Shown here: piece by piece, positions 13,003 through 47,585 of the stretch
Layout of the letters: each line of letters opens with the position of its first letter
Position numbering within the stretch: position 1 is the first letter of the stretch
From: a virus
Virus record (IMG/VR): IMGVR_UViG_3300032236_000771
Span: 21,558 to 85,557 of that record
Reading direction: 5' to 3' (one strand)
DNA length: 64,000 nt
Position numbers and translations under genes: made by a program
The notes under the pieces: generated by a model
Told to the model about the DNA's origin: nothing
The model's database searches: none
The model's input: the letters and a program-made list of their open reading frames with translations, nothing else

Positions 13003-14318
13003 TACAAGACCACACTGCTGACTGGGTCTGTAAAGAAGTTGCCACCTTGTACTTCGTCTGGAAGAATAGTTCCGCTATTAGGGTCAGTGTGATTAGGGTC
13101 AACCAACTGTAGCGACCAGTAAGTCCGACTTGGCAGACGCAAGGTCTGGTCCGCAGTCAAGGACAGCGTGGCGGTGTAGGTTCTGTCTGCGTTGAGCAGA
13201 GCAGTTGCGGTTAGCCCAGTCAATGCCAATGGCGTTGTGTGGGTAGTGGTTACAGTGAAGTTATTGGCGTCTACGACTGCGGTTACAACCCATGTTTGAT
13301 TTAATTCAGTGTTTACGCCAATAACGTTTATGGAATCACCCACGGCAAAAGTATTGCCCGCAGCGGTGATTTGAGCAGTAGTGCTTCCAGATGCCCTAGT
13401 GACGGCAGTGACTGCAAAGCTATTTAGGTCAACTACTTCTAGCCCGAACTCTTGCACTATCAGTACGCTTCCACGCTGAGGCAGCACATTAGCCACAAAT
13501 GAGCATGAAAGGTCATACTGACCAGTAAAAGTAAGGGTAGTGCTGAAAGCACGGCCTTGATACGCCGTTAGCTCACCAGCATCGGTAGGCCATACGGCAG
13601 GCTTGTCGCCGTAGGTAGGCAACTCGTCGCGAACACGCTGTGGGTATGAGCGGTCATCGACTTCTTGAGGCTTGTACACAGGAACGTAACGGTTGGTAGC
13701 CTTCGATACTCGACGCAACGTAAACACGTCAATCTTGTACATACCTAGGCCAAGTTGAACACAAAGTTCCTTATACTGAGCCTGACGCTCAGCAATTTGC
13801 TGGTTCAACTGGCGGTAACGCTCAGATCGCGGAATGCTGACGCCATCTGGTGCGGCAATGTCGATGTCAAAGGCAGCATCGGTTGCTAGGGTATACAAAG
13901 CCAAAGTAGTGGCATAAATAGCCACTGGGTATTCCTCAATAGGAGGCAATGTTGCTACGGTCACTTTACGGCCCAGAGAGTCTACGTGATTAGCAGTGTG
14001 CTGAAGAACAGCGTCAGTTACAAGCGACGATAGCTCAGCGGCGGTGAAGTAGCGGTAGTAGTTGCCACTTACAGTAACCTCAACACCGTCGTCTAAGACG
14101 GTGTCAGTTACGAGAATGCCCGTAGATTCCTCAACGGAGGACTGAGAGGTAATGTCGGTGCCGTCAGCAAAGACGTAAACGCTTGAAGCGTCTAGGGGAG
14201 AGTAGTGGAGTTGGAAACGGTTTGTCGTTCCATCGGCAACGAACTGGGTAACAAAAGACTTGCCGAGGTCACCAAGTTCCAGACGAACCCGGTCAACAAG
14301 ACTAGAGATGGTTGCCAA
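13002..14318 (-). CDS. Head-to-tail adaptor-like structural protein with Ig-like insert
   Basis: The 438-residue protein begins MATISSLVDRVRLELGDLGK, the helical start seen in phage adaptor or connector proteins next to capsid genes, then a beta segment (FVADGTTNRFQLHYSPLD). Residues about 295-355 hold an inserted beta module (FAVGDSINVIGVNTELNQTW, VVDANNFTVTTTH) that recurs in the protein at 23085-23759. It is the first gene after the strong terminator that follows the capsid group, so it may have its own promoter. A connector role is inferred from position and N-terminal similarity. Confidence 0.55.
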   Translation of the reverse strand: MATISSLVDRVRLELGDLGKSFVTQFVADGTTNRFQLHYSPLDASSVYVFADGTDITSQSSVEESTGILVTDTVLDDGVEVTVSGNYYRYFTAAELSSLVTDAVLQHTANHVDSLGRKVTVATLPPIEEYPVAIYATTLALYTLATDAAFDIDIAAPDGVSIPRSERYRQLNQQIAERQAQYKELCVQLGLGMYKIDVFTLRRVSKATNRYVPVYKPQEVDDRSYPQRVRDELPTYGDKPAVWPTDAGELTAYQGRAFSTTLTFTGQYDLSCSFVANVLPQRGSVLIVQEFGLEVVDLNSFAVTAVTRASGSTTAQITAAGNTFAVGDSINVIGVNTELNQTWVVTAVVDANNFTVTTTHTTPLALTGLTATALLNADRTYTATLSLTADQTLRLPSRTYWSLQLVDPNHTDPNSGTILPDEVQGGNFFTDPVSSVVL

Positions 14319-14376
14319 TTTTCCTCCGAAAATCTTCTGTATTTATGTTCCCCTAAACAGGGCAAAAATACTGCGT

Positions 14377-14425
14377 AAAAAAAGTCCACCCTGCTGGGAG
14401 GAGGGCGGGTACCAGCAGGGTGGAC
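14377..14425 (-). terminator. Strong intrinsic terminator after the capsid group
   Basis: A perfect 14-bp stem (14384-14397 with 14412-14425) encloses a 14-nt loop. On the minus strand it is followed by seven T residues. It lies just past the gene at 14440-14811 and would end or attenuate transcription of the head genes before the adaptor and fibre genes. Confidence 0.85.
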
Positions 14426-14439
14426 AGTTTAAGAGGCTA

Positions 14440-14811
14440 CTAACCTACTGAGGAAATGTAACCAAGCTGGTCGAGATACACGGCAAGCGAACGAGGAACT
14501 CGGTACTTGACGCCCATCTTGAATGTGTAGTGATTGCCTACACCAAAAGTCATGTCTTCGATGTCGTGTGAAGTTCGGATAATGACAGTGTCGTTATTTA
14601 CCGAAACTCCGACTGATTCAACCTCGTCGATAAGCAGTGGCTCATCTGGCTTCTTTGGGTCGAAAACATCGTTCTGAAGACTCTCTGCTTCAGCCTGACG
14701 GCTGAGAGAAATCTCGTCTGCACGGTCCTGAAGGGCCTTTGCATTTGCCTTAGCAGCCTGTTCTGCTGCACGGCCTGTTGCGTCCATTGGACTAGTTGAG
14801 GATTTTACCAC
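14440..14811 (-). CDS. Hypothetical protein downstream of the major capsid protein
   Basis: The product is 123 residues if translation starts at the GTG at 14811, which has AGGAG ten bases upstream (14822-14826). Longer starts run back into the capsid gene and cross a hairpin, so I rejected them. Residues about 10-45 are an Ala/Gln/Arg-rich helix; the rest is beta-rich (VSVNNDTVIIRTSHD, YTFKMGVKYRVPRSLAVYL). Its position suggests a head-associated protein such as a decoration or completion factor. No family recognised. Confidence 0.6.
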   Translation of the reverse strand: MVKSSTSPMDATGRAAEQAAKANAKALQDRADEISLSRQAEAESLQNDVFDPKKPDEPLLIDEVESVGVSVNNDTVIIRTSHDIEDMTFGVGNHYTFKMGVKYRVPRSLAVYLDQLGYISSVG

Positions 14812-14852
14812 GTTGATTATTCTCCTAATGTGATTTGGTTTTAGTGTAAGGG

Positions 14853-14870
14853 ACGGGGCCGAAGCCCCGC
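14853..14870 (-). other. UUCG-capped stem-loop after the capsid gene
   Basis: Between the capsid stop and the next gene the minus strand reads CGGGGC-TTCG-GCCCCG, a six-pair GC stem with a UUCG tetraloop and extra G/C flanks. There is no T run after it. It probably stabilises the capsid message or partly terminates, which would favour capsid over downstream expression. Confidence 0.5.
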
Positions 14871-14890
14871 CCCCTGCACAAAGGTGGCTA

Positions 14891-16018: not shown

Positions 16019-16051
16019 TATAGGGTTCCTTTCAATTGATTATTTACGGGG

Positions 16052-36216: not shown

Positions 36217-36237
36217 GCGACAACCTTACAGGAACAG

Positions 36238-36280: not shown

Positions 36281-36355
36281 GTCAATGGCAGGGTGTTTGT
36301 TCCTTGGGCAAAACCGACACTTTGGCCCGTACTTTAGCCACTTTGGCCTATCTAG

Positions 36356-36381
36356 CAGGGGCGATTTATGCCTAAATTTGG
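36356..36381 (+). repeat. Copy 3 of the 25-base dispersed repeat
   Basis: CAGGGGC, then TTTATGCCTAAATTTGG, 120 bases from copy 2 in the same orientation. Confidence 0.5.
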
Positions 36382-36480
36382 CTACTGTGTCCAATTTGGG
36401 GGTGTTAGGTGCGGCTGTCACCTGGCCGCCCCAGCCAGCTATCTTAGTCTAACCCTGCCCCCTAGTCAATTCGACACGCC

Positions 36481-36506
36481 GATAACCTCGATAACGATTA
36501 GATAAC
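36481..36506 (+). repeat. Three GATAAC units in tandem
   Basis: GATAAC starts at 36481, 36490 and 36501, and the last two are within GATAACGATTA repeats. Spacing is 9 and 11 bases. They may be protein-binding iterons. Confidence 0.45.
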
Positions 36507-36731
36507 GATTAGCCGGGAGCATTCCTGTGAATTTGGCTACTTTGGCCACTTTGGCAGGGGTCGCTGTGGATACGACCAGCTCTACACACCAGGTCTGGCT
36601 TGGTATCAGGTATGAGATTGGCTTCTAACGCCTTTTCAGGCGGTGGGTGGGGTGATTACCTATTTAGGGGGGGTCGTGGCTTCTACGGGCATTCTGGGGC
36701 TGTTTAGGCCATACGCGATCTAAACCCTATT

Positions 36732-36901
36732 CTGTGAGTATCCTGTGAGTTCTAGGTTTTACTTGACTTTGAGCTGCATCTGTGATTCTTCCGTTTTGCT
36801 GTGAATGTCCTGTGAGCTCTTGTTATCTCTCTCTTCTTTGTGTATCCTTCTCCATCTGGATGCTGTGAGTTTGCTTGGTGTTCCCTGGTCGTTCCCTGTG
36901 A
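36732..36901 (+). repeat. Cluster of seven CTGTGA words
   Basis: CTGTGA occurs at 36732, 36743, 36780, 36799, 36810, 36863 and 36896, all in the same orientation, most as CTGTGAG or CTGTGAA; an eighth lies at 36525. Two pairs are 11 bases apart. Chance would give far less than one in this span, so these are candidate iterons. Confidence 0.5.
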
Positions 36902-37071
36902 AGGGGGCAAGCCCCCTTTGACCCCCGAGGGCAGGGGCGTTTCATACCTTGTATATATGGCGATAGGGGGCTGGCAATTCGCGATCTCAGCTTGCTGGCA
37001 ACTTGCTGGGAATTACGATTTTTTAGGTGTCGGTGTTTGCTTTTGTCGGTGGGTTGTGCTTGGATTGGTCT

Positions 37072-37090
37072 TGTCGGGTAATTACCGACA
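37072..37090. promoter_or_regulatory. Inverted repeat before the rightward arm
   Basis: TGTCG(G)-GTAATTAC-CGACA: five-base arms around a self-complementary eight-base core, with one extra G. It lies 70 bases before the first plus-strand gene and resembles elements before later transcription units (39295, 40632). Candidate operator. Confidence 0.4.
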
Positions 37091-37159
37091 CCGAGAGCGG
37101 GGGCAACCCCCTGGCCCCCGCTCTCATCAAACCAACAGGGGGGACAGGGGCACCACCAA

Positions 37160-37378
37160 ATGGACATCCGTCTTCACCTTCACGACCAAAGCGTTCGTAT
37201 CTTCTGGGGGACAGAGCTCAAACCAATGACCTTTGACCAACCAATTGCGAATGACGACACCCTTCGGTGTGTCTTCTGCTCAAACGAAACCGAGCCAATG
37301 TTGTGGTGGCAATGGAGCAACCACCTAGCCAACCACCACAACTTCACCATTCTGGGCAACACCAAGGCAGGCAACTAA
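37160..37378 (+). CDS. Small zinc-finger-like protein, first gene of the rightward arm
   Basis: The 72-residue product has TLRCVFCSNETEPMLWWQW and SNHLANHHNF, a CxxC plus His pair that could bind zinc. It is separated from the next gene by a TAATG junction. Function unknown. Confidence 0.55.
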   Translation: MDIRLHLHDQSVRIFWGTELKPMTFDQPIANDDTLRCVFCSNETEPMLWWQWSNHLANHHNFTILGNTKAGN

Positions 37379-37662
37379 TGAGCAACTTAGCGAAACTGGC
37401 CACCCGCCTGGGCGGTCTTGGAATCACCGCCGAATATGACGGCAACTACTGGGCGGGGGGAATCGAAGGCGTTTATGTGCCACTCCGTGAAGGTGTTGGA
37501 ATCGGTATCGGTGAAACTTGGGATGAACCAACCAAGACCTTCACCATTTGGCTCAATGCCGAACCAACCGAAGGGCAGGAGCAACTGACCTACACCAACC
37601 GACCAACCGAGCTCATTGCCAACTTGGTGGCAATGTTCCAGCAGAAGGGAATCACCAACTAA
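37378..37662 (+). CDS. Hypothetical protein
   Basis: The 94-residue product starts MSNLAKLATRLGGLGI at a TAATG junction. It is beta-rich with GGIEGVYVPLREGVGIGIGE and a closing helix TELIANLVAMFQQKG. No family recognised. Confidence 0.55.
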   Translation: MSNLAKLATRLGGLGITAEYDGNYWAGGIEGVYVPLREGVGIGIGETWDEPTKTFTIWLNAEPTEGQEQLTYTNRPTELIANLVAMFQQKGITN

Positions 37663-37898
37663 TGGCACTTTACGACACCAGCCTGAAACAAGTCCCCGCA
37701 ATCACGCCTGACCCGGCCCAGCCCTTGACCCGTGCTGAGATTCACGCCATCTCGGTGGCCTTGATTGTGCTTCGTGATAGGCACATTGCTGCCCACTACC
37801 GAGCCAAAGACCCAAGCAACGAAACCCACAACCGACAGGCGGGCGACTACCTAGACCAGCTCCGCCGCAAGGTCGAACTAATGAAGGAGAGCAACTAA
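37662..37898 (+). CDS. Hypothetical helical protein
   Basis: The 78-residue product starts MALYDTSLKQVPAITP at a TAATG junction, with helix RAEIHAISVALIVLRDRHIA and a C-terminal MKESN. The last codons form the ribosome site (AAGGAGAGC) for the next gene. Function unknown. Confidence 0.55.
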   Translation: MALYDTSLKQVPAITPDPAQPLTRAEIHAISVALIVLRDRHIAAHYRAKDPSNETHNRQAGDYLDQLRRKVELMKESN

Positions 37899-38092
37899 TG
37901 AAGAAGACCGAAGTTGAGCGTTGCGAGCGTTGCGACCGCCCGGCCACCGCAGAAGTGTGGTGTGCGACCCATTATCGCCAATGGTTGAGCGAGTGGGCTT
38001 GTGAGTGTGGCGAAGTCAATGGGGGCGGCATAAACCGATTCACCAAGCGTTGCGGATTCTGTGGCAAGGCCAACGAAGAAGGGGGCAAGTGA
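37898..38092 (+). CDS. Double zinc-ribbon mini-protein
   Basis: The 64-residue product has eight Cys: CERCDRPATAEVWCATHY, ACECGEV and KRCGFCGK, consistent with two zinc sites. Function unknown; likely a protein or nucleic-acid adaptor. Confidence 0.6.
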   Translation: MKKTEVERCERCDRPATAEVWCATHYRQWLSEWACECGEVNGGGINRFTKRCGFCGKANEEGGK

Positions 38093-38346
38093 TGAGCAAC
38101 ATTTGGACAGCAGACCGAGCCACCAAGGCCACAACCGAAGACCTGACCAAAGCCTGGGCGATATTCCACCAAGCCCACGGGTGGCTAATGGCCAGCCCTT
38201 GGGACAGCACCCGCCACGCCGATGACCTGCTCCACGATTGGCAGGTTATCGAAGACGAGCTCGTGAAGCGGGGGGTTCTTGACCCCGAAGAAGAAGACCA
38301 CACCTACACCTTGGCGGATGTTCTGCCGAGTGAGTTCATCTACTAG
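38092..38346 (+). CDS. Hypothetical protein
   Basis: The 84-residue product starts MSNIWTADRATKATTED at a TGATG junction and contains FHQAHGWLMASPWDS and an acidic end. Helical overall. No family recognised. Confidence 0.5.
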   Translation: MSNIWTADRATKATTEDLTKAWAIFHQAHGWLMASPWDSTRHADDLLHDWQVIEDELVKRGVLDPEEEDHTYTLADVLPSEFIY

Positions 38347-38355
38347 AAGGGAAGA

Positions 38356-38724
38356 ATGAAGATGAGCAAAGCAACATTGACCGAGCAGGAGAAGGCCGAC
38401 ATTGCCCAGCGAGTAGCCAAGGGGCTAGGAGCGGGTGGCAAGTTGGTTGTCGCAATCCACCGCACGAGCCAAAGTAATCTGTCGTATTCGTATTCCATTC
38501 GCTTGGTGTATCCAACTGACCAAGGCCTTAGCGACCTATGGCTGAACTATTGGTTCGCCGCCGAGTATGGCGAGAGCCTGACCAAGCAAGATTGGCTCAA
38601 AGGCCAAGGTGTTGGGACTGACCGCTACTTCTTGGCGGGCTATGAGCTCGGCGGTCTGTTGGTCAAGCGTGGCCTAATCGAAGACCGCTACATTCCCGCC
38701 CGTCAAGTCTTGGCGATTGCTTAG
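38356..38724 (+). CDS. Hypothetical protein
   Basis: The 122-residue product starts MKMSKATLTEQEKADIA with GAAGGGAAG just upstream; the ATG two codons on is also possible. It has a beta segment SYSYSIRLVYPTDQGL and LAGYELGGLLVKRGLIEDRY. Function unknown. Confidence 0.5.
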   Translation: MKMSKATLTEQEKADIAQRVAKGLGAGGKLVVAIHRTSQSNLSYSYSIRLVYPTDQGLSDLWLNYWFAAEYGESLTKQDWLKGQGVGTDRYFLAGYELGGLLVKRGLIEDRYIPARQVLAIA

Positions 38725-38735
38725 GGGGCCGGGGA

Positions 38736-39005
38736 ATGAGCGAGTTGGTCAAGATTGAGCAGGAGAGCTTCGTGGCTCGTATCTATCCGCACGGGGAAGG
38801 CTTCGTGCTGGTGTGGAATGATTATGCCGTGAATGAATGGGTGGAGAGATTCACCACGCTCCCGCAGGCCATAGCCCGCTTGGCTCTGTTGGTCCAGGCT
38901 GTGGAGAGCGACAGGGGCTTTACCAAGTGGGCTGGCGAGTTCGCAAGCGACGCGGAAGCGTGGTTCGATAGCCAACTGAATCAAGAGAATGGGAAGGTGG
39001 CCTAA
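38736..39005 (+). CDS. Hypothetical protein
   Basis: The 89-residue product has a small alpha/beta look (FVARIYPHGEGFVLVWNDYA, LPQAIARLALLVQAVES). It ends at a TAATG junction. Function unknown. Confidence 0.5.
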   Translation: MSELVKIEQESFVARIYPHGEGFVLVWNDYAVNEWVERFTTLPQAIARLALLVQAVESDRGFTKWAGEFASDAEAWFDSQLNQENGKVA

Positions 39006-39223
39006 TGCTGGTTGTGATTGCGAAGGGTGTCGAAGTGCTTGCTGTATCCACTAAGCGAGATTATGAGCAGGCAGGCATTGCCGAGCTCTGGTGGCAAGAG
39101 CAGGCGGTGGAAGCCCCCGCCAACTTGGTGGCTGCCTATCAGCAAGCCCTTGCCCAAGTCCTAGACCTAGGCCACGCCTTGGAGCAAGTCCAGGCACGAG
39201 CCGGGCAGGGGCAGGCCGAGTGA
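39005..39223 (+). CDS. Hypothetical protein ending the first transcription unit
   Basis: The 72-residue product starts MLVVIAKGVEVLAVSTKRDY, with a helical Ala/Gln-rich second half. It is followed immediately by a TTGTTTGTGTTGG element and a 120-base gap. Function unknown. Confidence 0.5.
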   Translation: MLVVIAKGVEVLAVSTKRDYEQAGIAELWWQEQAVEAPANLVAAYQQALAQVLDLGHALEQVQARAGQGQAE

Positions 39224-39236
39224 TTGTTTGTGTTGG
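39224..39236 (+). repeat. TTGTTTGTGTTGG element, copy 1
   Basis: This 13-base word recurs exactly at 40598, 43597 and 48314, each at the end of a gene or in a gap. The present copy begins one base after the stop of the preceding gene. Confidence 0.5.
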
Positions 39237-39288
39237 CTGGCAGTTTGCTGTGAAGTTCAGTTTTTTGTGTGTCGCTATTGTTATGTCC

Positions 39289-39311
39289 CAAAGTGTAGGA
39301 TAAACTCCTAC
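39289..39311 (+). promoter_or_regulatory. Promoter/operator-like element before 39343
   Basis: CAAAGTGTAGGATAA contains a -10-like word and is repeated almost exactly at 40627-40641 and, with one extra base, at 42379-42394. It overlaps the inverted repeat GTAGGA-TAAAC-TCCTAC (39295-39311). Candidate start and control site for the second unit. Confidence 0.4.
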
Positions 39312-39342
39312 TTATCAAACGCTCAATGAAGGAGAGCAGAGA

Positions 39343-39900
39343 ATGAAGAAGACCGAGTTAGTTGTAGGCCGAGAGTATGCCTACTCAACCAAGAGCAACC
39401 CGACCTGGGTTGAGCGGGTCAAGGTGCTAGACCTGAACCCAAAGCTTCTATGGCGAGATGCCAAGGGCAGTATCGAAGTGGAGTTCATCCGCACGGATCG
39501 CGAAACGGGCGAAGACAAAGCAGGTTCGCCAACCAAAGTTCTAGGCCGATACCTGATTGGCGAATACCGAGAAGCAGTCGCAAACATTGAGATTGCCAAG
39601 CGGGATAAAGAGATTGCCTATCTCCGCCGACAGGCAAACGAGAGAGAGCAGCGGGACTTCTTGGAAGGCCGGGTAAAGCCACTTCTCAAAGAAGTCTTAG
39701 AAGGCCAGTCGTATTCGATTCGCTTCGATTCATCGCGAACCTATCAGCCATTCACTTTGGAGCTATCTCGTGAAGGTCTGCGAGTGCTTGTCGAAGACTT
39801 GCGAATCGGCAAGCACAACGCTGCCCGCTTGGAGAATGTCCTGCTGGAATTGGAGCGGGTTCGTGCCGAGCAGGCCAAGACCGAGAGCGTGGTGGCCTAA
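39343..39900 (+). CDS. Hypothetical protein with coiled-coil centre
   Basis: The 185-residue product starts MKKTELVVGREYAYSTKSN, which is a small beta domain. A charged helix (EIAKRDKEIAYLRRQANE) follows, and then a region with YQPFTLELSREGLRVLVEDL. AAGGAG sits before the start. It is the first gene of its unit. No family recognised. Confidence 0.55.
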   Translation: MKKTELVVGREYAYSTKSNPTWVERVKVLDLNPKLLWRDAKGSIEVEFIRTDRETGEDKAGSPTKVLGRYLIGEYREAVANIEIAKRDKEIAYLRRQANEREQRDFLEGRVKPLLKEVLEGQSYSIRFDSSRTYQPFTLELSREGLRVLVEDLRIGKHNAARLENVLLELERVRAEQAKTESVVA

Positions 39901-40220
39901 TGGAGAAGCAGTTGTTTGCCCGGTGTAAAGCCCGTGCCGAGTTTGAGATTCTAGACGACATTAGTCGGGGCTATGTCCCGCTGTCGGTCAAAGCGTTTGA
40001 CGAGATTCACGCGTTTATGGACGCGAATTGCTATGGCGGTGTAGCCGATTCTGCGGGTGTCTTTTCGCGATCAGCATTCCCGACCACGGAAGACTGGCTG
40101 GCCTTCGTGGGAGAGCTTCACGCTCACCTAGACGGGTGGATAAAGTCGGGGTCAATGGCTCACGACTTCGGGCAGTTCTATGGCGAAGTCCTGACCTGGG
40201 GCAAGGTGGGCGAGAAGTGA
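39900..40220 (+). CDS. Hypothetical protein
   Basis: The 106-residue helical product (AFDEIHAFMDANCYGGVADS, DWLAFVGELHAHLDGWIK) has a TAATG junction with the gene before and a GTGA overlap with the gene after. Function unknown. Confidence 0.55.
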   Translation: MEKQLFARCKARAEFEILDDISRGYVPLSVKAFDEIHAFMDANCYGGVADSAGVFSRSAFPTTEDWLAFVGELHAHLDGWIKSGSMAHDFGQFYGEVLTWGKVGEK

Positions 40221-40576
40221 TTACCCAAGTCCTGCCTATGGTCAATACGGATGAGCCTGATGTGGCCTATCGAATCGTTGGGAAGATAGACACCGACCAA
40301 GAGTTCTTCGCCTATGCGGAAGAGTTCTTGGAAGGTGAGTGGCAACCCGTTGAGAGCATTCAGTATCAGCGTGATTCGGTCAGCGTTCCAAACTTGGAGT
40401 ATGACCCTGATGTGCTTCACTTCTTCGCAATGACTTGTAATCTCACCAAGCCGGGCGATTCATTCGATTGGCAGGCCAGTCGCAAGCTGGTGGATAGCCA
40501 TACCTTGGTCTTCTTCGTGAATGGAGAATACCTAAGCCAAAGCGGTTCGCGATTCGTAAGCGTTATCGAATCGTAA
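40217..40576 (+). CDS. Hypothetical protein (GTG start)
   Basis: The product is 119 residues from the GTG at 40217 (GTGA overlap); the ATG seven codons later is an alternative. It is mixed alpha/beta with VAYRIVGKIDTDQEFFAYAE and LVDSHTLVFFVNGEYL. It ends its unit. Function unknown. Confidence 0.5.
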   Translation: MITQVLPMVNTDEPDVAYRIVGKIDTDQEFFAYAEEFLEGEWQPVESIQYQRDSVSVPNLEYDPDVLHFFAMTCNLTKPGDSFDWQASRKLVDSHTLVFFVNGEYLSQSGSRFVSVIES

Positions 40577-40597
40577 TCAAACAAAGCCTGTCGCCTG

Positions 40598-40610
40598 TTG
40601 TTTGTGTTGG
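40598..40610 (+). repeat. TTGTTTGTGTTGG element, copy 2
   Basis: Exact copy, 21 bases after a gene end and 29 bases before the promoter-like GGATAA at 40636. Confidence 0.5.
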
Positions 40611-40626
40611 GCAAGTGCGGCAGAAT

Positions 40627-40646
40627 CAAAGTGTCGGATAACGACA
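40627..40646 (+). promoter_or_regulatory. Promoter/operator-like element before 40670
   Basis: CAAAGTGTCGGATAA (40627-40641) overlaps the inverted repeat TGTCG-GATAA-CGACA (40632-40646). Similar to the elements at 37072 and 39289. Candidate start and control site. Confidence 0.4.
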
Positions 40647-40669
40647 GACAGAGAATGAAGGAGCGGTAA

Positions 40670-41254
40670 ATGGAATTAGCAAACATCAAAGCGGCCTTCG
40701 GCGTGATCGCGAAGAAGGGTATCACGACCAGGCTGAATGTAATGTCGTGCTGTCGCAGTTGTGCGGTTGCCGAGTTCCCGTATGCGGATGATGTGCCAAT
40801 GATTTGGACATTCGGCGGTCAGGGCAACCGAATCACTAGGACAGACAGCCCCGAAGAAGTGTGGGTCTATCACGGGAATCTCTCCAAAGACGGAGAGCTC
40901 ACGCCGAGCGGCCGGGTGGTCGTGGCAGCGTTTGAGCAGGCGGGCTTCGCCATTGACTGGGAAGGTCAGAGCGAGCATAAGGCCATTCGCCTTACCGACG
41001 CGAAGCCAGTCGAAGATGAGTTTGGCGATTGCGATAAGTGCGGTGGCAAGTATGAGCTTGGATCGCGAGAAGGTCGCTGTGGCGATTGCGGTAATTGCTC
41101 CAAGTGCTGCGACCACAACGGAGCTTGGGTCTGCCCTACTTGCCACTACGAATGCCACCAAGACATTGCCAAGGGCGAGTGCGGGTCTTGTGCGGACTGC
41201 CACGCCTATCACCACGGGAATTGCCAGGTCTATCACGAGAAGGAGATTGTCTAA
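40670..41254 (+). CDS. DUF6891-like protein with cysteine-rich tail
   Basis: In the first half of this 194-residue protein, GITTRLNVMSCCRSCAVAEF and the following strand region are typical of the DUF6891-like group. The last about 70 residues contain a dense CxxC array (DCDKCGG, CGDCGNCSKCC, CPTCHYECHQ, CGSCADC), likely three zinc sites. The ribosome site GAAGGAG lies inside a four-codon frame MKER just upstream. Function unknown; a nucleic-acid or protein adaptor is plausible. Confidence 0.55.
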   Translation: MELANIKAAFGVIAKKGITTRLNVMSCCRSCAVAEFPYADDVPMIWTFGGQGNRITRTDSPEEVWVYHGNLSKDGELTPSGRVVVAAFEQAGFAIDWEGQSEHKAIRLTDAKPVEDEFGDCDKCGGKYELGSREGRCGDCGNCSKCCDHNGAWVCPTCHYECHQDIAKGECGSCADCHAYHHGNCQVYHEKEIV

Positions 41255-41490
41255 TGACCACCAAAGCAGAGCTCATTGAGTTCATTCAGAAGCGTTATTC
41301 AGATGACGAGCAGTTGGTCTGGCAGATTGTGAGCCGGGATGACTTGGTTGATGTCGTCAGCGACCTAAACACTTGGGAGCGATTCGTGGCCTATGCCGAG
41401 CAGTATTCGACCTTGGCAACACCATTCAGCGATTCTGCTGTTGAGCAGTATCAGGACTTCGCAGAGAAGTGTGGAGAAGAGAATGACTGA
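41254..41490 (+). CDS. Hypothetical acidic helical protein
   Basis: The 78-residue product starts MTTKAELIEFIQKRYSDDEQ at a TAATG junction and is acidic and helical throughout. Its end overlaps the next start by eight bases. Function unknown. Confidence 0.5.
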   Translation: MTTKAELIEFIQKRYSDDEQLVWQIVSRDDLVDVVSDLNTWERFVAYAEQYSTLATPFSDSAVEQYQDFAEKCGEEND

Positions 41491-41779
41491 CCACGAAGCG
41501 GTCTATGTTTTCGACTGCCCAAGTTGCGGTGGCTTCTATGGCGAGAATGCTCTCACCAGCGACAACCGCCTGCTTTGCCCTAAGTGCTATGCGGAGCAGA
41601 GCATTCCAAGCCCGTATGTGGAGCGTATGCTCACGAGCTACGAGGTCGAACCATTCACCGACCACTTGCGGGACTGCTCCCACGAATGGTTGGTCGAAGC
41701 CCGGCTGACCTGGTGCGAGTATTGCGGAGCAAGCGAAACAGAAGTTCAGAATTACCTAGCCAAAGGAGAAGGCGAATGA
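41483..41779 (+). CDS. Zinc-ribbon protein
   Basis: The 98-residue product has DCPSCGGFYGE, LLCPKCYAE, a His/Cys pair DCSHEW, and TWCEYCGASE, giving two probable zinc ribbons. It overlaps the next gene by four bases (ATGA). Function unknown. Confidence 0.55.
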   Translation: MTDHEAVYVFDCPSCGGFYGENALTSDNRLLCPKCYAEQSIPSPYVERMLTSYEVEPFTDHLRDCSHEWLVEARLTWCEYCGASETEVQNYLAKGEGE

Positions 41780-42348
41780 GCAGCAACGAAGAATTGGTAG
41801 AAGTCTTGGAGAATGGTCAAGGCCACCGAGTAGCCATTTACTACGACAACGAAGCGGAATGCCCATTGCTCTGGTGGGACAACCTTGGTTGCCAACTCAT
41901 CAGCTCTGGTCGCAACATCAGCGACTTCGGCACGACCGAAGAGGATGACTGGCACAGCGACTTGGTTCGGGACTTGATTCGCGATCACAAAGACACCTAT
42001 GTCCAAGAAGAATTGGAGCAGCGTATCCGTGAGTATTTTGACGGGTATGGCGAAGGCGAGTATGCGGTTTCATTCCGAACGCTTCGTGGTGCTACCCAGG
42101 GCGAGTGGGCAAAGGTTGTCTTCTATGGCGAGAGCAGCGAAGACCTAGACCGAGCGGCGAGATACACCGAAGCGTGGTTCGCTGGTGAAGTCTTCTTTTT
42201 GGCTCACGAAGTCGAAGTCATCTACACCTCACCGAATGGCAACACCAAGAAGTTTTGGGAGCTTGCGGATGACGAAGCCCTATCGGGCAACTATCTTGAC
42301 CCATTGCCAAAGACTTACGAAGAGGCATTGGCAATTATCACAGGTTGA
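41776..42348 (+). CDS. Hypothetical acidic protein
   Basis: The 190-residue product starts MSSNEELVEVLENGQGH and is rich in Glu, Asp, Trp and Tyr (LLWWDNLGCQLISSGR, EQRIREYFDGYGEGE). An acidic, compact protein like this could mimic DNA or bind a host enzyme, but there is no motif. It is the last gene before a 78-base gap. Confidence 0.5.
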   Translation: MSSNEELVEVLENGQGHRVAIYYDNEAECPLLWWDNLGCQLISSGRNISDFGTTEEDDWHSDLVRDLIRDHKDTYVQEELEQRIREYFDGYGEGEYAVSFRTLRGATQGEWAKVVFYGESSEDLDRAARYTEAWFAGEVFFLAHEVEVIYTSPNGNTKKFWELADDEALSGNYLDPLPKTYEEALAIITG

Positions 42349-42378
42349 TAACGAATCAACCAAAGGCCTATGCCTGAC

Positions 42379-42394
42379 CAAGAGTGTCGGATAA
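42379..42394 (+). promoter_or_regulatory. GGATAA promoter-like element before 42427
   Basis: CAAGAGTGTCGGATAA is a near copy of the 39289 and 40627 elements, 33 bases before the next start. The inverted repeat is degenerate here. Candidate promoter. Confidence 0.35.
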
Positions 42395-42426
42395 GGTCGA
42401 ACCAACTAAACCAAAGAAGGAGAGCA

Positions 42427-42546
42427 ATGCGAACTCTAACCTGCGACCGCTGTGGGTCTAGCTTTACGGGTGAAACCAAAGACATTCACCTAGCCTTTAT
42501 GCTTCACGAGTGCGACCTTGGCGAAGACCAAGACGAAGACGAGTAA
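42427..42546 (+). CDS. 39-residue zinc-finger mini-protein
   Basis: The frame is MRTLTCDRCGSSFTGE... with CxxC, then IHLAFMLHEC and an acidic tail, a plausible C2HC zinc finger. AAGGAGAGC sits three bases before the ATG and stands alone after a promoter-like element, so I take it as a real gene despite its length. Confidence 0.6.
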   Translation: MRTLTCDRCGSSFTGETKDIHLAFMLHECDLGEDQDEDE

Positions 42547-42566
42547 GTCAAACTAACTAAATACTT

Positions 42567-42615
42567 CTAGGTGGCCGGGTATCCCTTCATCTCCCTTCAT
42601 TCCCCGGCCACCTAG
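42567..42615. other. 13-bp perfect stem with 23-base loop
   Basis: CTAGGTGGCCGGG (42567-42579) pairs exactly with CCCGGCCACCTAG (42603-42615) between the mini-zinc-finger gene and the clamp-like gene. No T run follows. It may be an attenuator or a processing site. Confidence 0.5.
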
Positions 42616-42636
42616 ATTCCAACTAAGGAGAAAAAA

Positions 42637-43212
42637 TTGGAACTAAGTAATCACGCGGCCCAAGCCCTGGCTTCTATGGCAGAGCTGACCGATAAGAAGG
42701 ACACCAACCTATCGCTGGTCTATCTGCGATACGACAGCGAAGCCAAGACCCTGCGGGCAGTAGCCACCGATAAATACATTGGCGGCGTAATGACCATTCA
42801 GGACTTCGTGAGTGCCGAAGACGAATCGTTTGAGGCCACGCTCAATGCGGATGCTGTGAAGTTCATCAAGCAGAGCAAGGCGACCATTCGTCTTACTGCC
42901 ACCGAGGTGGCCACCGCCACTAGCTCATTGGCTCTGTCTGCTTCGGATATGATCGCGAATTACTGGAAGGGCTTGACTGAAAAGATGGTCGGAATGGTTG
43001 CCGAGTTGGTCCAGGCAGAGAAGAGCGAGAGCGTGGCTGTGCTAGACCTAGCAATGACCACCAAGATTGCGAAGGTGCTATCCCCTAGCCCGACTGCTAG
43101 AAGCAAGACCTTCACAATGAGCCTGCCCGCAAAGAAGTCGGGTAAGCCAACCCCTGTGCTATTCCAGGCCGAGGGCATTGACTTGGTTCAGCAGCCAAGA
43201 ATGGAGCGATAA
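42637..43212 (+). CDS. Short DnaN-like sliding-clamp protein (TTG start)
   Basis: The 191-residue protein starts at a TTG with AAGGAG six bases upstream. LVYLRYDSEAKTLRAVATD and KYIGG at residues about 27-50 and the closing KPTPVLFQAEGIDLVQQPRM resemble domain signatures of bacterial beta clamps (A-T-D-x-Y; K-P-x-x-F...M-P-x-R/M). The middle is repeated beta/helix (SKATIRLTATEVATATSSLA). It is half the length of a full three-domain clamp, so it may oligomerise differently or bind host polymerase. Identification is tentative. Confidence 0.45.
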   Translation: MELSNHAAQALASMAELTDKKDTNLSLVYLRYDSEAKTLRAVATDKYIGGVMTIQDFVSAEDESFEATLNADAVKFIKQSKATIRLTATEVATATSSLALSASDMIANYWKGLTEKMVGMVAELVQAEKSESVAVLDLAMTTKIAKVLSPSPTARSKTFTMSLPAKKSGKPTPVLFQAEGIDLVQQPRMER

Positions 43213-43214
43213 CA

Positions 43215-43454
43215 ATGATTAGCCAAGAGCAAGCCCAAGAAGCGGTTGAGATGCTTCGTAATATGACCGACCTGGTTCAGAAGTATCAGGAGCAGATTAC
43301 CCGTGGCACAGAAGTCATCAGGCTATCCACCGAAGCCCTCAAAGGACAGCAGGAGCGTATTCAGAAGCAAGTCCGAGAGATTGAGTGGCTCTATCGCAAG
43401 GTGTCCGAGCTGGAATCTATCCTCAATTCGTATCAGGCGGCCAGCAATGATTAG
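43215..43454 (+). CDS. Coiled-coil protein
   Basis: The 79-residue product is one continuous charged helix (EQAQEAVEMLRNMTDLVQKY, QERIQKQVREIEWLYRKVSE). It starts two bases after the clamp-like gene, so it may be its partner. Function unknown. Confidence 0.6.
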   Translation: MISQEQAQEAVEMLRNMTDLVQKYQEQITRGTEVIRLSTEALKGQQERIQKQVREIEWLYRKVSELESILNSYQAASND

Positions 43455-43596
43455 GGTCTGGGTAGCCTGTTGGGACTGCGGTCAGCAACACTTGGTCGAA
43501 GAGCGTGAGCAATACACCGCTCACCAAGTATGCGAAGCCTGTATCGAAGAGCGTCGCGAACGCTGGTCAGCCCTCGTGGCTGGCAAGGGAGCGTGA
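43447..43596 (+). CDS. Small zinc-finger protein
   Basis: The 49-residue product has VWVACWDCGQQHLVEE and HQVCEACIEERRERW, a classic two-CxxC ribbon. It overlaps the previous gene by eight bases. Function unknown. Confidence 0.6.
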   Translation: MIRVWVACWDCGQQHLVEEREQYTAHQVCEACIEERRERWSALVAGKGA

Positions 43597-43609
43597 TTGT
43601 TTGTGTTGG
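43597..43609 (+). repeat. TTGTTTGTGTTGG element, copy 3
   Basis: Exact copy starting right at the end of the preceding gene. The GTG inside it (43603) can serve as the start of the next small gene. Confidence 0.5.
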
Positions 43610-43743
43610 GCAGCAAGAGCGATAAGCCACGATTGTTTGGCTGGTGTATGACCGGGCATCACAAAGAATGTCGGTCGGAGTATCTACTCTGGGAGAAACT
43701 CAATAAGTGCGAGTGCGAGTGCCACGGGAGCAGCAATGAGTAA
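43603..43743 (+). CDS. 46-residue cysteine/histidine mini-protein
   Basis: The frame from the GTG at 43603 (or the ATG at 43648) reads GWCMTGHHKECRSEY and ends KCECECHGSSNE, a compact C/H zinc-site pattern. It overlaps the next gene by eight bases in an ATGAGTAA junction. The coupling supports translation. The start is uncertain. Confidence 0.5.
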   Translation: MLGSKSDKPRLFGWCMTGHHKECRSEYLLWEKLNKCECECHGSSNE

Positions 43744-43963
43744 GGCAGACTTCCGAGCATTGGCAGCCAAACACCACGGAGTGGTGGAGATACCTGACCT
43801 ATCTGTCTGGGTAGCAGACAGCGGGGAATGGGGCGTTGGTGAGCTGGTAGTCGTAGATGCGACTAAGTGGCTAGACACCGACTTCATAGATTTATCACAG
43901 ACCCACCACAGCGAGGTCTGGGGTAAGGCAGTAGCAATAACAAAACTAAGGAGCAACAAATGA
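43736..43963 (+). CDS. Hypothetical protein
   Basis: The 75-residue product has a small beta-rich centre (GVVEIPDLSVWVADSGEWGV). ATGAGTAA and ATGA overlaps link it to both neighbours. Function unknown. Confidence 0.5.
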   Translation: MSKADFRALAAKHHGVVEIPDLSVWVADSGEWGVGELVVVDATKWLDTDFIDLSQTHHSEVWGKAVAITKLRSNK

Positions 43964-44166
43964 GCAAGAGGGTCTATTTTGTTGTCGCAGTTGATTTGAC
44001 TGACGAGCAGATTTACCTAGATGACGAGGCCTTTATGGCTCGTTTCGACAAAGACCAGCAGGTCTGGGACACCGAAGCTGAGGCTTGGGAAGGCTTCTCG
44101 GATGAAGCCTATGGCCAGGCGTTGGCAATTCTAAACAGCAAGACCATAGCGAAGGATGGCAACTAA
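43960..44166 (+). CDS. Small acidic beta-alpha protein
   Basis: The 68-residue product starts MSKRVYFVVAVDLTDEQIYL and has a trailing helix DEAYGQALAILNS. It resembles the other small strand-strand-helix products at 44166, 46025, 46195 and 46367. Function unknown. Confidence 0.5.
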   Translation: MSKRVYFVVAVDLTDEQIYLDDEAFMARFDKDQQVWDTEAEAWEGFSDEAYGQALAILNSKTIAKDGN

Positions 44167-44357
44167 TGGCAACTTACACCATTCCGTTTGAAGAGAATCT
44201 GCGGGGCTGGTTTGAGATTGAGGCAGACTCAATTGAAGAAGCAAAGACGATTCTAGAAGAAGGTAGTGCCGAGGTTGATTATGCCCGGTTCTACAAAGAC
44301 GGCACAACTAACTGGGATGAAGCCGACATCCAACTAGCAACCAAGGAGAGCAACTAA
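44166..44357 (+). CDS. DpnD/PcfM-like mini-protein
   Basis: The 63-residue product has MATYTIPFEENLRGWFEIEA followed by DSIEEAKTILEEG, i.e. strand, strand with V/F-x-I-x-A, and helix. This is the pattern of the small DpnD/PcfM-like family, and the same pattern recurs at 46025 and 46195. TAATG junctions on both sides. Function unknown. Confidence 0.5.
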   Translation: MATYTIPFEENLRGWFEIEADSIEEAKTILEEGSAEVDYARFYKDGTTNWDEADIQLATKESN

Positions 44358-44746
44358 TGGCTAATTACTACGGAGTAGGTCGCACCAACTTCTTCCAGGT
44401 CAAAGACCCGAATGCGTTTGAGGCCGAGATGAAGAAGTATGGCCTACGGGTCAAACTGGATGACGACTTCGCAATGCTCATCAGCGAGAATGAGGGCGGG
44501 TTTGAGTGGTCGTATCAGGATGACGAAACCGACCTAGACATTGACTACTCGGATGTATTCCGCCGCCACTTGGTGGATGGAGCAGTCGCAGTCATTATGG
44601 AAGTGGGCAACGAGAAGCTCAACTACCTCGGGGGCTATGCGGTTGCCTACAACAACAAAGGTGAGAGCCGAGAGGTTAGCATCAGCGACATCTTCACCCT
44701 TGCCAAAGAGTTGGGCAACAACATCATCTCGTTCAGCAGTTTCTAA
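44357..44746 (+). CDS. Hypothetical acidic protein
   Basis: The 129-residue product starts MANYYGVGRTNFFQVKD at a TAATG junction and has GFEWSYQDDETDLDIDYSD and AVAVIMEVGNEKLNYLGGYA. It is acidic, with a small alpha/beta look; phage proteins with this opening are uncharacterised. It ends its unit. Confidence 0.5.
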   Translation: MANYYGVGRTNFFQVKDPNAFEAEMKKYGLRVKLDDDFAMLISENEGGFEWSYQDDETDLDIDYSDVFRRHLVDGAVAVIMEVGNEKLNYLGGYAVAYNNKGESREVSISDIFTLAKELGNNIISFSSF

Positions 44747-44757
44747 AAATGTCGGAC

Positions 44758-44796
44758 TTGACACTACACTAAGACTTGTAGTAATAATTACTACAA
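44758..44796 (+). promoter_or_regulatory. Promoter with overlapping 21-bp palindromic operator
   Basis: TTGACA at 44758 is followed after 18 bases by TAATAA. The -10 region lies inside a perfect inverted repeat, TTGTAGTAAT-A-ATTACTACAA (44776-44796). This is the textbook layout for a repressor-controlled start, 26 bases before the gene at 44822. Confidence 0.55.
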
Positions 44797-44821
44797 CCAA
44801 ACAAATGGAAGGCAACAACTT

Positions 44822-45328
44822 ATGGGAACTCGTAATCTCACTAAGGTAATTGATCGCGAAGGCAACCTTCGTGTAGCTCAATACGGGCAGTTTGACGGAT
44901 ACCCTTCGGGGCAGGGTGTCAAGATGCTCAACTTCATCAGCAGCGAATACCGCATCCTGGACACCATTGAGGAGTCGTTGGCTAAGGCCTACTTCGCTAG
45001 TGATGAAGAGATTGACCGCCTCTATGGCGAGTTTGAAACCACCGGGGATGGCTGGATGACCCTTGACGAGGGCAAGAAGCTCTCTCTTCGTTATCCAAAC
45101 CTTGCCCGTGAAACCGCCACGGACATTCTCAAAGTCATCACCTACTCAATTGGCCGAGTGCCGCTGGTGAATCAGGCTTCGTTTGAGCAGGATGAATCTT
45201 ACTGCGAAGGCGTATTCACCCTTGACTTCAAAGAAGGCAAGTTCATCACCAAATACAACGGAGATGTCGTTGAGTGCGACCTCAACGACCTTCCAACCGC
45301 AGAGGAGTATCTAGCCAAATGGAAGTAA
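44822..45328 (+). CDS. Conserved MGTRNLT-type phage protein
   Basis: The 168-residue product starts MGTRNLTKVIDREGNLRVAQ, then YGQFDGYPSGQG, a very conserved opening in many phage and bacterial proteins of unknown function. The rest is mixed, with VVECDLNDLPTAEEYLAKWK at the end. It is the first gene after a palindromic operator, so it is likely regulated. Its last ten bases overlap the next gene. Confidence 0.65.
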   Translation: MGTRNLTKVIDREGNLRVAQYGQFDGYPSGQGVKMLNFISSEYRILDTIEESLAKAYFASDEEIDRLYGEFETTGDGWMTLDEGKKLSLRYPNLARETATDILKVITYSIGRVPLVNQASFEQDESYCEGVFTLDFKEGKFITKYNGDVVECDLNDLPTAEEYLAKWK

Positions 45329-45567
45329 GCACCTACATCAAAGACCTGTGCGAACGGCAGGCATTGGCCTTCATCCTGTCCGAGTGGGACACCAAGCTCA
45401 CCTACGACCAGGTGATTGAGATTCTTGAGCAGGATGACTGGGAGAGCAACGGGGATGTAATGGTCTGGGAGCAGTTTGAGGACTGCTCGGACATTCCAGA
45501 GCAGATTGAGAGCCTTCGTCAGATGTTTGAAGAAGTAGCCGAAGCAGCATTGGAGCAGACCAAATGA
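45319..45567 (+). CDS. Acidic helical protein
   Basis: The 82-residue product starts MEVSTYIKDLCERQALAF and is acidic and helical (EILEQDDWESNGDVMVWEQF). It overlaps both neighbours by a few bases. Function unknown. Confidence 0.5.
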   Translation: MEVSTYIKDLCERQALAFILSEWDTKLTYDQVIEILEQDDWESNGDVMVWEQFEDCSDIPEQIESLRQMFEEVAEAALEQTK

Positions 45568-45863
45568 CCACTATGGAACTAACCCCGGTTCAAGAAGACA
45601 CCCTACGAGGATACCTTGGCCGCCTGTTGGATGAGAAGACCCAGTTGGATGGCCAGTCCATTCCCGACCGAGATTCACTCATCCTTGAAACTATCTATGT
45701 GGGGCTGGACTACGAAGCCCCTATCCAATTGAGCGACACCCATTGGCTGCTCCGCATCCAGGAGTTGCTATCCGAAGGCCGAGTTCGCAAGGCTGCGGAT
45801 GAGCTGAATGAGTTTATCGTTCAGCGTGGGTATGACGAGAGCAAGGAGAGCGTAAATGCTTAG
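45564..45863 (+). CDS. Hypothetical helical protein
   Basis: The 99-residue product has EDTLRGYLGRLLDEKTQLDG and a C-terminal helix KAADELNEFIVQRGYDES. It has an ATGA overlap with the gene before and its last bases give AAGGAGAGC for the next. Function unknown. Confidence 0.5.
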   Translation: MTTMELTPVQEDTLRGYLGRLLDEKTQLDGQSIPDRDSLILETIYVGLDYEAPIQLSDTHWLLRIQELLSEGRVRKAADELNEFIVQRGYDESKESVNA

Positions 45864-46032
45864 TCAGCAGGAGCAGTCCTTCTGGGACTTCTGGGGCAAG
45901 ATAGAGGCCTACTCTGTCGAAACCGATACACCAATTCACCAAGTGGTGAATGTCCGCCAGGCGTTTGACGAGGGCTATCAAGCAGCCCTACGGGACACCG
46001 CAAACAACACCAAGGAGACAACCAATGCCTAA
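45856..46032 (+). CDS. Small hypothetical protein
   Basis: The 58-residue product starts MLSQQEQSFWDFWGKIEA with AAGGAGAGC upstream, then VVNVRQAFDEGYQAALRD. The gene overlaps both neighbours by eight bases, which supports translation. Function unknown. Confidence 0.55.
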   Translation: MLSQQEQSFWDFWGKIEAYSVETDTPIHQVVNVRQAFDEGYQAALRDTANNTKETTNA

Positions 46033-46195
46033 GTTCTTAGTGCTAGTCAATGAAGAGGTCTATCACCGAGTTGAGGTCGAAGCGATAGACAAAAACACCG
46101 CAGTTGAGATGGCCTATGAGATTCTCAACACCGACAACGGGTTCAACACCTATGCCAATGGCTACACAGGCCACGAGGTTGAGGAGTTATCGTAA
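46025..46195 (+). CDS. DpnD/PcfM-like mini-protein
   Basis: The 56-residue product starts MPKFLVLVNEEVYHRVEVEA, then DKNTAVEMAYEIL and a short tail. It has the same strand-strand-helix layout as 44166-44357 and 46195-46374. It starts in an overlap (ATGCCTAA) and ends at a TAATG junction. Confidence 0.55.
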   Translation: MPKFLVLVNEEVYHRVEVEAIDKNTAVEMAYEILNTDNGFNTYANGYTGHEVEELS

Positions 46196-46374
46196 TGCCT
46201 AAATACAACATCTTCTGGACAGAAGAGATTTACTACCGCACCGAGATAGAGGCGGACAGCAAGGATGCCGCTCTCACAGAGTTCTACGAGAGCGGAATGA
46301 GCTACGATTCCCGTGAAACTGGGCGGGAGTTCCAGGACAGCGTGGTCGTCAAAGAAGAGGGCGAAGATGAATAA
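46195..46374 (+). CDS. DpnD/PcfM-like mini-protein
   Basis: The 59-residue product starts MPKYNIFWTEEIYYRTEIEA, then DSKDAALTEFYESG and an acidic end. It is a paralogue of 46025-46195 by its MPK(F/Y) start and (V/I)EA motif. Confidence 0.55.
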   Translation: MPKYNIFWTEEIYYRTEIEADSKDAALTEFYESGMSYDSRETGREFQDSVVVKEEGEDE

Positions 46375-46522
46375 CACCTATTGGGTGGATGTCATCCGCA
46401 CCTATGTCGTTAGCTCCGATAGCGAACTCACCCAGGAGCAGGCACAGACCCTCGTAGAGAATGGCCTAGGCTCTCTCAAAGTCGTTGAATGGCGATTTGA
46501 CGATTCATTGGAACAAAACTAA
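46367..46522 (+). CDS. DpnD/PcfM-like mini-protein
   Basis: The 51-residue product starts MNNTYWVDVIRTYVVSSDSE, then LTQEQAQTLVENG and a closing VVEWRFDD. It has the same strand-strand-helix layout as the two genes before it, with an eight-base overlap. It is the last of the tandem set. Confidence 0.5.
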   Translation: MNNTYWVDVIRTYVVSSDSELTQEQAQTLVENGLGSLKVVEWRFDDSLEQN

Positions 46523-46561
46523 GGAGCAGTATGCTGCTATCACTTTTGAAGGACAAACTAA

Positions 46562-46759
46562 ATGGAACTAAGAGATTTACTCACAGGCAAAGAAGTCGCA
46601 GAATCCGCAGGATTGCGATACAAAACTCTTTGGACATACAAAAAGCGGAACACCCTTCCAGAGCCAGACATCTACATAGGGAACAAGCCCCTGTGGAAGC
46701 GGGAAACTATCGCAGAGTGGTTATCCACAAGACGAACCAGAGCAACTAGGGATAACTAA
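46562..46759 (+). CDS. AlpA/excisionase-like DNA-binding protein
   Basis: The 65-residue winged helix-turn-helix protein has LLTGKEVAESAGLRYKTLWT, then YKKRNTLPEPDIYIGNKPLW and ETIAEWLSTRR, the standard small MerR/AlpA-like layout with the P-x-P-D wing. It could regulate the rightward arm, for example at the palindrome at 44776. AAGGA precedes the start. There is no integrase to go with an excisionase role. Confidence 0.75.
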   Translation: MELRDLLTGKEVAESAGLRYKTLWTYKKRNTLPEPDIYIGNKPLWKRETIAEWLSTRRTRATRDN

Positions 46760-46923
46760 TGGTTGAGCTCGAACTAAGCAAGCAAGAAGTCGAACTGCTG
46801 TTGGCGGCATTGAAGGTGGCCGAATCCTCTTACACGGACCGGGGAAACTTCAAGGCTTGCCAGAGAGTATCTAAGCTCCACTCACTAGTGTGGAAGCAAA
46901 CCTTTACCTATGGACAGGTGTAG
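46759..46923 (+). CDS. Small helical protein
   Basis: The 54-residue product starts MVELELSKQEVELLLAALK at a TAATG junction after the AlpA-like gene and is helical and charged. It may be a partner of the regulator. Function unknown. Confidence 0.55.
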   Translation: MVELELSKQEVELLLAALKVAESSYTDRGNFKACQRVSKLHSLVWKQTFTYGQV

Positions 46924-46926
46924 AAG

Positions 46927-47130
46927 ATGGAAGACAACAAGATTGTAGTTCATACCCACGACATTGCTAAGATTGTGGCCAAGGCCAGAGCAGATGTCCT
47001 TGCCGAATTAGAAGAGATGATTTGTTCGGAGTGTGCCGAAACTAGGCACGAGAACCCCAGTAGGTTTATTCACAAAGCCTGCTTCACCATTCAAGAGGCA
47101 TTGGAACAACTAGGAGAATCAAATGGATGA
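46927..47130 (+). CDS. Small Cys/His protein
   Basis: The 67-residue product has an N-terminal helix and then MICSECAETRHENPSRFIHK, a CxxC with two His, a possible zinc site. It overlaps the next start by eight bases. Function unknown. Confidence 0.5.
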   Translation: MEDNKIVVHTHDIAKIVAKARADVLAELEEMICSECAETRHENPSRFIHKACFTIQEALEQLGESNG

Positions 47131-47392
47131 GCTTTACTATTGGCAGCGTGATGCCAAGGAGTTCGTAGAAGAGTTCGTAGCCGAAGGCGACCCAGGGGAA
47201 ACCCGTGAGGAGTGCTACACCGCAATGAAGGACTCCATCATTGAGGGCTTGCGATACAGGAAGGGTCAGATTGACGACCTGCTGTGGGATGAGAAGATAG
47301 ACGACGCGGAAGGCGACCGCCTCAAAGAGAAGGCTAAGGCCGAAACAGATGTCTATCTAGCCGCTATCGAAGCGTGGTATGCCAATGAGTAA
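47123..47392 (+). CDS. Acidic helical protein
   Basis: The 89-residue product (DAKEFVEEFVAEGDPGETRE, EKAKAETDVYLAAIEAWYAN) is strongly acidic and helical. It ends in an ATGAGTAA overlap with the next gene. Function unknown. Confidence 0.5.
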   Translation: MDELYYWQRDAKEFVEEFVAEGDPGETREECYTAMKDSIIEGLRYRKGQIDDLLWDEKIDDAEGDRLKEKAKAETDVYLAAIEAWYANE

Positions 47393-47585
47393 TCTCTCCG
47401 AGCTATGCGAAAAGGTCTATGTCGTTGGTGGCCAGTATGCTGTCTATGACTTTATCCAGAAGATGTATCCCAAGCAGCCTTGGGCGTGGTGTGCCGCCTG
47501 CGAACACAACAGCCCTCGCGATCTAGATTACTCTTGCTTAGTCTGTGGCTCTCCTACTGAGCCTTACTGGGGGCAAGATGTGTAA
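47385..47585 (+). CDS. Zinc-ribbon protein
   Basis: The product is 66 residues from the ATG at 47385 (MSNLSELCEKVYVVGGQYAV); an ATG two codons earlier also exists. WAWCAACEHNSP and YSCLVCGSPTEP give a two-CxxC ribbon. Function unknown. Confidence 0.55.
   Translation: MSNLSELCEKVYVVGGQYAVYDFIQKMYPKQPWAWCAACEHNSPRDLDYSCLVCGSPTEPYWGQDV

Follow-up and report, generated by a model that had tools for sequence, protein, structure and literature searches.

Loss of restriction sites from phage genomes is a known phenomenon. In a survey of double-stranded DNA phages, site elimination concerns a small minority of phage-site pairs; the words lost are short palindromes matching Type II enzymes, and GATC is commonly avoided (Rusinov et al., 2018, PMC6286503). 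In phage T5, the terminal 8-9% of the genome is the first part to reach the cell interior, and restriction insensitivity has been linked to it (PMC9345386, PMC13250531). EcoRI sites, six in the rest of the genome, are lacking from this first-step-transfer DNA. The Streptomyces phage GiJojo (PP725410) has a linear genome with exact terminal repeats of 197 bp; after its DpdA gene (99.1-100.6 kb) come an ArdA-like antirestriction gene and an operon on the opposite strand, which reads inwards from the right end. Here, we describe a 64,000-nucleotide window of viral DNA (positions 21558-85557 of the 85,557-bp contig IMGVR_UViG_3300032236_000771; coordinates below are those of the window). In this phage, the word GATC is nearly absent and almost all its remaining copies are gathered, as GATCGCG, in a block that has further word losses of its own. 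A literature search of partial coverage found no report of such block-limited restriction-site avoidance in phages.

The whole contig contains 11 GATC, against about 261 expected from a dinucleotide-conditioned model, and none in the 21.6 kb outside the window. GCGC, for which 192 copies are expected, is absent, and CCGG and CGCG counts are lowered. With observed/expected values of 11/261 and 0/192, GATC and GCGC, both recognition sites of Type II enzymes, fall below 0.1, the value taken as the upper limit for avoidance. A preliminary description of the window had listed the 11 positions, put the expected number at about 250 and placed every copy within GATCGCG or its complement CGCGATC, nine of them within the longer GATCGCGA. 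Exact string search over the whole contig bears out the positions and contexts, the remaining two sites being GATCGCGG (13825) and GATCGCGT (36717). The preliminary description had missed the GCGC loss, the reduction of CCGG and CGCG, and the 12-kb block with its own missing words. The base trailing GATCGCG is A at nine sites, G at one and T at one. Because the chance that CGC or GCG flanks a given GATC on either side is about 0.6% (from the flanks of ATC preceded by A, C or T), the confinement of 11 out of 11 copies to GATCGCG (P ~1e-25) is not due to chance. The base before ATCGC followed by A, C or T is A 26, C 48, G 0 and T 43 times; before ATCGCG it is A 2, C 2, G 11 and T 2 times. The copies are also clustered, ten of the 11 lying within 11.7 kb (P = 2e-8), in what the preliminary description called the divergent region and rightward arm.

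The cluster falls within a block (36.3-48.05 kb) from which TGCA, CATG, ACGT, GTAC, TTAA and TATA are missing. The edges are sharp and, in this phage, these losses are limited to the block. The gaps extend from 36775 to 48450 for TGCA, 36271 to 48047 for ACGT, 36214 to 48713 for CATG and 36329 to 50414 for GTAC, words found 305, 271, 223 and 172 times in the contig, respectively. The gap scan also revealed several missing five-base words, among them GTAAC and GTCAC. When the block genes are shuffled with their codons preserved, 18-33 copies are expected for each lost palindrome, GCGC included, and none is observed. The edges match one operon, from a gene-poor left edge at 36.2 kb to a hairpin at 47.87 kb. 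GAAGA is in excess within the block.

In related phages (designated G001, G003, etc.), each four-base palindrome is either near normal or gone. Up to seven of the 16 are lost, and the set varies from phage to phage. In G003 (IMGVR_UViG_3300032216_000646, 95.7 kb), AATT, AGCT, ATAT, CCGG, CGCG, GATC and GGCC are absent or nearly so, and TTAA is strongly lowered too; an N6/N4 methyltransferase (PF01555) was found in this relative only. At the scale of the genome, G018, G021 and G025 have lost only GATC and G024 only CGCG; G001 keeps GATC (310/364) and has lost AGCT, CCGG and CGCG. Such all-or-none loss, with a target set shifting between close relatives, is likely the expected trace of Type II restriction by changing hosts. 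The restriction pressure proposed earlier is well supported by this phage-specific pattern and, as judged from the sequences, restriction is the likely cause of the genome-wide GATC loss.

A rightward block is found at the equivalent map position, just left of the DpdA gene, in relatives, most clearly in G001, G009, G011, G012, G017, G024 and G027. These blocks have one orientation, some shared genes and extra, phage-specific word losses: TGCA, GTAC and ACGT in G001; AATT, TTAA, ATAT and CATG in G024; AGCT in G017 and in G012, where it amounts to 0/60 in the block vs. 564/609 in the rest. The losses are nested. Among the phage-palindrome pairs counted in 13 phages, 29 are missing from block and rest alike, 34 are missing from the block alone, and a single one is missing from the rest and kept in the block. 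Words lost genome-wide are also gone from the block in 29 out of 30 cases, the exception being GATC (as GATCGCG) in the present phage. GAAGA, a non-palindromic word of the MboII type, is missing over 12.3 kb in the block of G001 (81.7-94.2 kb) and over 7 kb in that of G009 (70.6-84.1 kb), and is common elsewhere. Enriched words in the relatives' blocks resemble ribosome-binding or intergenic repeats; no GATCGCG-like enriched word scattered in coding sequence was seen there.

We propose that a two-tier purging of restriction sites explains these word losses, with a probability of about 0.6. In the first tier, host restriction enzymes would have cleared GATC and GCGC from the whole genome, the relatives being cleared according to the hosts they met. 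In the second tier, the block, viewed as an early rightward operon at the predicted genome end, would have lost six more palindromes or above. Entering the cell first and unprotected, it would undergo the strongest selection against sites; its products would then shield the remaining DNA or speed its entry, allowing the rest of the genome to keep those sites. GATCGCG copies in the block would be spared by the GATC nuclease; modified bases in the overlapping CGCG(A) are the most probable reason, and a bound protein is the other.

The block is predicted to be terminal, early DNA serving host takeover, because its left edge, near 36.2 kb, corresponds by synteny to the right genome end of GiJojo. 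First entry of the block is at present the best explanation of the second tier, on grounds that are mainly the phage family and synteny. In GiJojo and relatives such as BRock, the genes between terminase and DpdA are arranged as in the present phage, and an opposite-strand operon with an ArdA-like gene beside it follows at the right end; however, the DpdA proteins are ~32% identical and the terminal operon of GiJojo shows no palindrome loss. CTTCTC and AGAAGC are missing from the terminal 14 kb of GiJojo (101.4-115.2 kb), where AGAAG, AGGAG and ACTTC are also absent over long stretches. T5 has a ~10-kb terminal segment with pre-early genes that, like the present block, is depleted in restriction sites. 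However, it is an unrelated siphophage with mild depletion, and two-step entry is known for T5, whereas it is only presumed here. As for the survey cited above, its accessible parts report no position dependence, whereas here up to seven of the 16 palindromes are lost and the extra losses are confined to the block.

Several points weigh against the two-tier purging. The synteny used for the entry order involves one distant relative, GiJojo, whose terminal operon is not palindrome-poor (0.94 vs. 0.86), and the T5 terminal repeat is only mildly so (0.83 vs. 0.95 in the rest). Contig breaks near the block edge occur in only some relatives. Block depletion is only partial in G021 and G025, and G003 shows little beyond its genome-wide losses. 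The gene content of the present block is mostly unlike that of the relatives' blocks, a few small genes only being shared, and no antirestriction gene was recognised in it. No host, and no restriction enzyme, emerged from genome contigs queried with TerL. ArdA had no match in the phage family, nor did control genomes give any. Some of the block proteins were scanned against Pfam and PHROGs, in which the T5 A1/A2 proteins were not searched directly, and had weak or unrelated matches only. Of five queries from block genes run against viral contigs, four found no close relative and the fifth gave only 33% homologues elsewhere.

In the codon-shuffled block genes, 34 GATC and 1.8 GATCGCG are expected whereas eight of each are observed; eight GATCGCG were not reached in 1000 shuffles. 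A tolerance model was also used, i.e., a constrained sampler where the lost words are forbidden, GATC is allowed only as GATCGCG and a single CGCG is penalised. It gives about four GATCGCG in the block genes vs. the eight observed (P ~0.02). Outside the block, a similar model predicts about ten copies vs. one found, and in GATC-free relatives the base before ATCGCG is never G (A 13, C 9, T 16). Since GATCGCG is enriched in the block, near-absent elsewhere and absent from the relatives, we view it as a GATC context that would be spared by the GATC nuclease via overlapping methylation or a bound protein. Lying in what would be the most exposed DNA, these sites would have to be immune there. The preliminary description had considered GATCGCG as protected or functional and had called for its comparison with expectation. 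Either may hold; GATCGCG is enriched and tolerated in the block, but not in the rest of the genome or in the relatives.

One explanation, to which we give somewhat less than even odds, is that GATCGCG is protected genome-wide by a recently gained CGCG or CGCGA methyltransferase, either from the host or the Dam-type enzyme of the phage, the block coming from a long-protected lineage. All 11 sites, including the one outside the block, read CGCGATC, the minimal overlap with CGCG; moreover, the Dam-type gene is unique to the present phage and the block carries other genes than the blocks of relatives. However, genome-wide tolerance would give about ten copies in the rest instead of one, Dam homologues occur in phages without the pattern, and relatives having CGCG but no GATC are devoid of GATCGCG. 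Because GATCGCG is tolerated neither in the rest of the genome nor in relatives, long-acting genome-wide chemical protection is unlikely; immunity as a block-specific or recently acquired property fits better. The Dam-type gene noticed earlier is real (47.8 bits against PF05869, curated cut-off 28.1; 44.7 against the NCBIfam phage_N6A_met equivalog, under the cut-off of 97.05). Its homologues (80 loci) occur mostly in phages with ordinary GATC and without GATCGCG exclusivity; the predicted protein is therefore only a candidate for the cause of the pattern. An origin of GATCGCG in this family of homologues was rejected.

Alternatively, GATCGCG would be a functional site of the early region for a regulator, a DNA-entry or a segregation protein, whose binding shields GATC. 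The excess is indeed confined to the block (ten copies in 11.7 kb, and the eight coding ones exceed both expectations given above), the sites are evenly spread in both orientations and in all three reading frames, and outside the block they are almost absent. On the other hand, there is little constraint past GATCGCG beyond the prevalent A, no constant placement relative to gene starts or the promoter-like repeat described below, no comparable word scattered in the coding sequences of relatives' blocks, and the tolerance model is exceeded only modestly. We consider such a binding site as rather unlikely. Two related ideas were discarded: GATCGCG as a promoter or gene-start element does not fit the site positions, and GATCGCGA is not a word dispersed generally in relatives, since none of 16 plus 11 records has it. 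The fuller proposal that the family carries a terminal, first-entering operon purged of nearly all the restriction words read by its hosts, with a dedicated GATCGCG shield in the present phage, is put forward tentatively.

The block might also be a horizontally acquired segment with the avoidance signature of another host, entry order playing no part. Relatives differ strongly in the genes that their blocks carry. Furthermore, AAA-type, CobT-like and WhiB-like genes (named by eye), common in relatives' blocks, are missing from the present one; this and the few small genes shared favour a replaced block, and part of its word-loss signature may have been imported. However, the nesting extends genome-wide losses to the block (29/30), the block recurs at one map position and in one orientation with some shared genes, and its edges are those of one operon; acquisition as the full explanation looks improbable. 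Finally, codon or amino-acid usage, raised earlier as a possible sole cause and favoured by the skewed codon choice in the block, is ruled out by the codon-preserving shuffles, for GATC and GATCGCG as well as for the other lost palindromes.

The phage is contractile-tailed, with sheath, gp19-type tube and baseplate J genes. It also encodes a terminase, an SPP1-like portal, DnaB, RecA, RuvC, a Cas4-type exonuclease, WhiB, SpoVS and a DpdA-like transglycosylase. It is a member of a large group of uncultured phages, a terminase search having given at least 80 loci with identities of 78-84%. The closest isolates for DpdA are Streptomyces phages (~32% identity), and the host is likely actinobacterial. 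A DpdA-like gene is present in every relative whose contig covers the region; no preQ0 synthesis genes were recognised beside it among the proteins scanned, and these DpdA-like proteins form a singleton DpdA group of likely actinobacterial phages. An HNH nuclease gene and the Dam-type methyltransferase gene (regions 56654-57439 and 58032-58995) flank the conserved RuvC gene; specific to the present phage among relatives, they are possibly a mobile pair. A ParB-like gene (33502-34110) accompanies the parS-like palindrome TGTTTCACGTGAAACG of the left block edge. The repeat TGTTTGTGTTGG occurs at ~39224, 40598, 43597 and 48314, at gene ends or between genes; copies of it recur in the blocks of several relatives, G012 among them, where the other strand carries most of them, and it is possibly a shared promoter or processing element. 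Coordinates are collected in Table 1.

Table 1. Features of the window, with strand and remarks.
Feature	Position	Strand	Remarks
GATCGCG, GATCGCGG	13825-13831	+	Only GATC outside the block; in conserved structural-region gene 13002-14318
Region of ~1 kb without confident gene, left block edge	36220-37310		Predicted genome terminus or early promoter region; sequence, synteny with GiJojo right end
parS-like palindrome TGTTTCACGTGAAACG, left block edge	36266-36281		Core also at block edge in G003 and G021
Block with own restriction-word loss, holding 10/11 GATC; sole rightward operon of the phage	36330-48050	+	Gap scan, codon shuffles, map position in relatives
GATCGCG, GATCGCGT	36714-36720	-	Non-coding
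GATCGCG(A)	36980-36986	-	Non-coding
GATCGCG(A)	39496-39502	+	ORF 39343-39900, codons GAT CGC GAA
GATCGCG(A)	40066-40072	-	ORF 39900-40220, codons TCG CGA TCA
GATCGCG(A)	40705-40711	+	ORF 40670-41254, codons GTG ATC GCG
GATCGCG(A)	41061-41067	+	ORF 40670-41254, codons GGA TCG CGA
GATCGCG(A)	41980-41986	-	ORF ending 42348, codons CGC GAT CAC
GATCGCG(A)	42951-42957	+	ORF ending 43212, codons ATG ATC GCG
GATCGCG(A)	44852-44858	+	ORF 44822-45328, codons GAT CGC GAA
GATCGCG(A)	47517-47523	-	ORF 47379-47585, codons CGC GAT CTA
Terminator-like 13-bp stem and T run, right operon end	47866-47896		
DpdA-like guanine transglycosylase (phrog_887)	48978-50480	-	Conserved neighbour of the block in relatives
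Dam-type adenine methyltransferase (PF05869)	58032-58526	-	Present phage only, 1/15 compared

As a rule, avoidance of restriction sites is assessed for a genome as a whole. In the present family it is compartmented, all-or-none and nested: every word that the genome loses, and others besides, are gone from the block. The GATC pattern is part of this wider loss. GATC in the present phage alone breaks a nesting that is perfect in all other cases, and points to a particular, directly testable protection. If the entry-order reading is true, the first-entering end, the onset of antirestriction and the enzyme set of uncultured hosts would be readable from sequence alone. Restriction exposure would then be written into the genome map by the first-entering operon, and a shield would let the phage keep GATC there alone.

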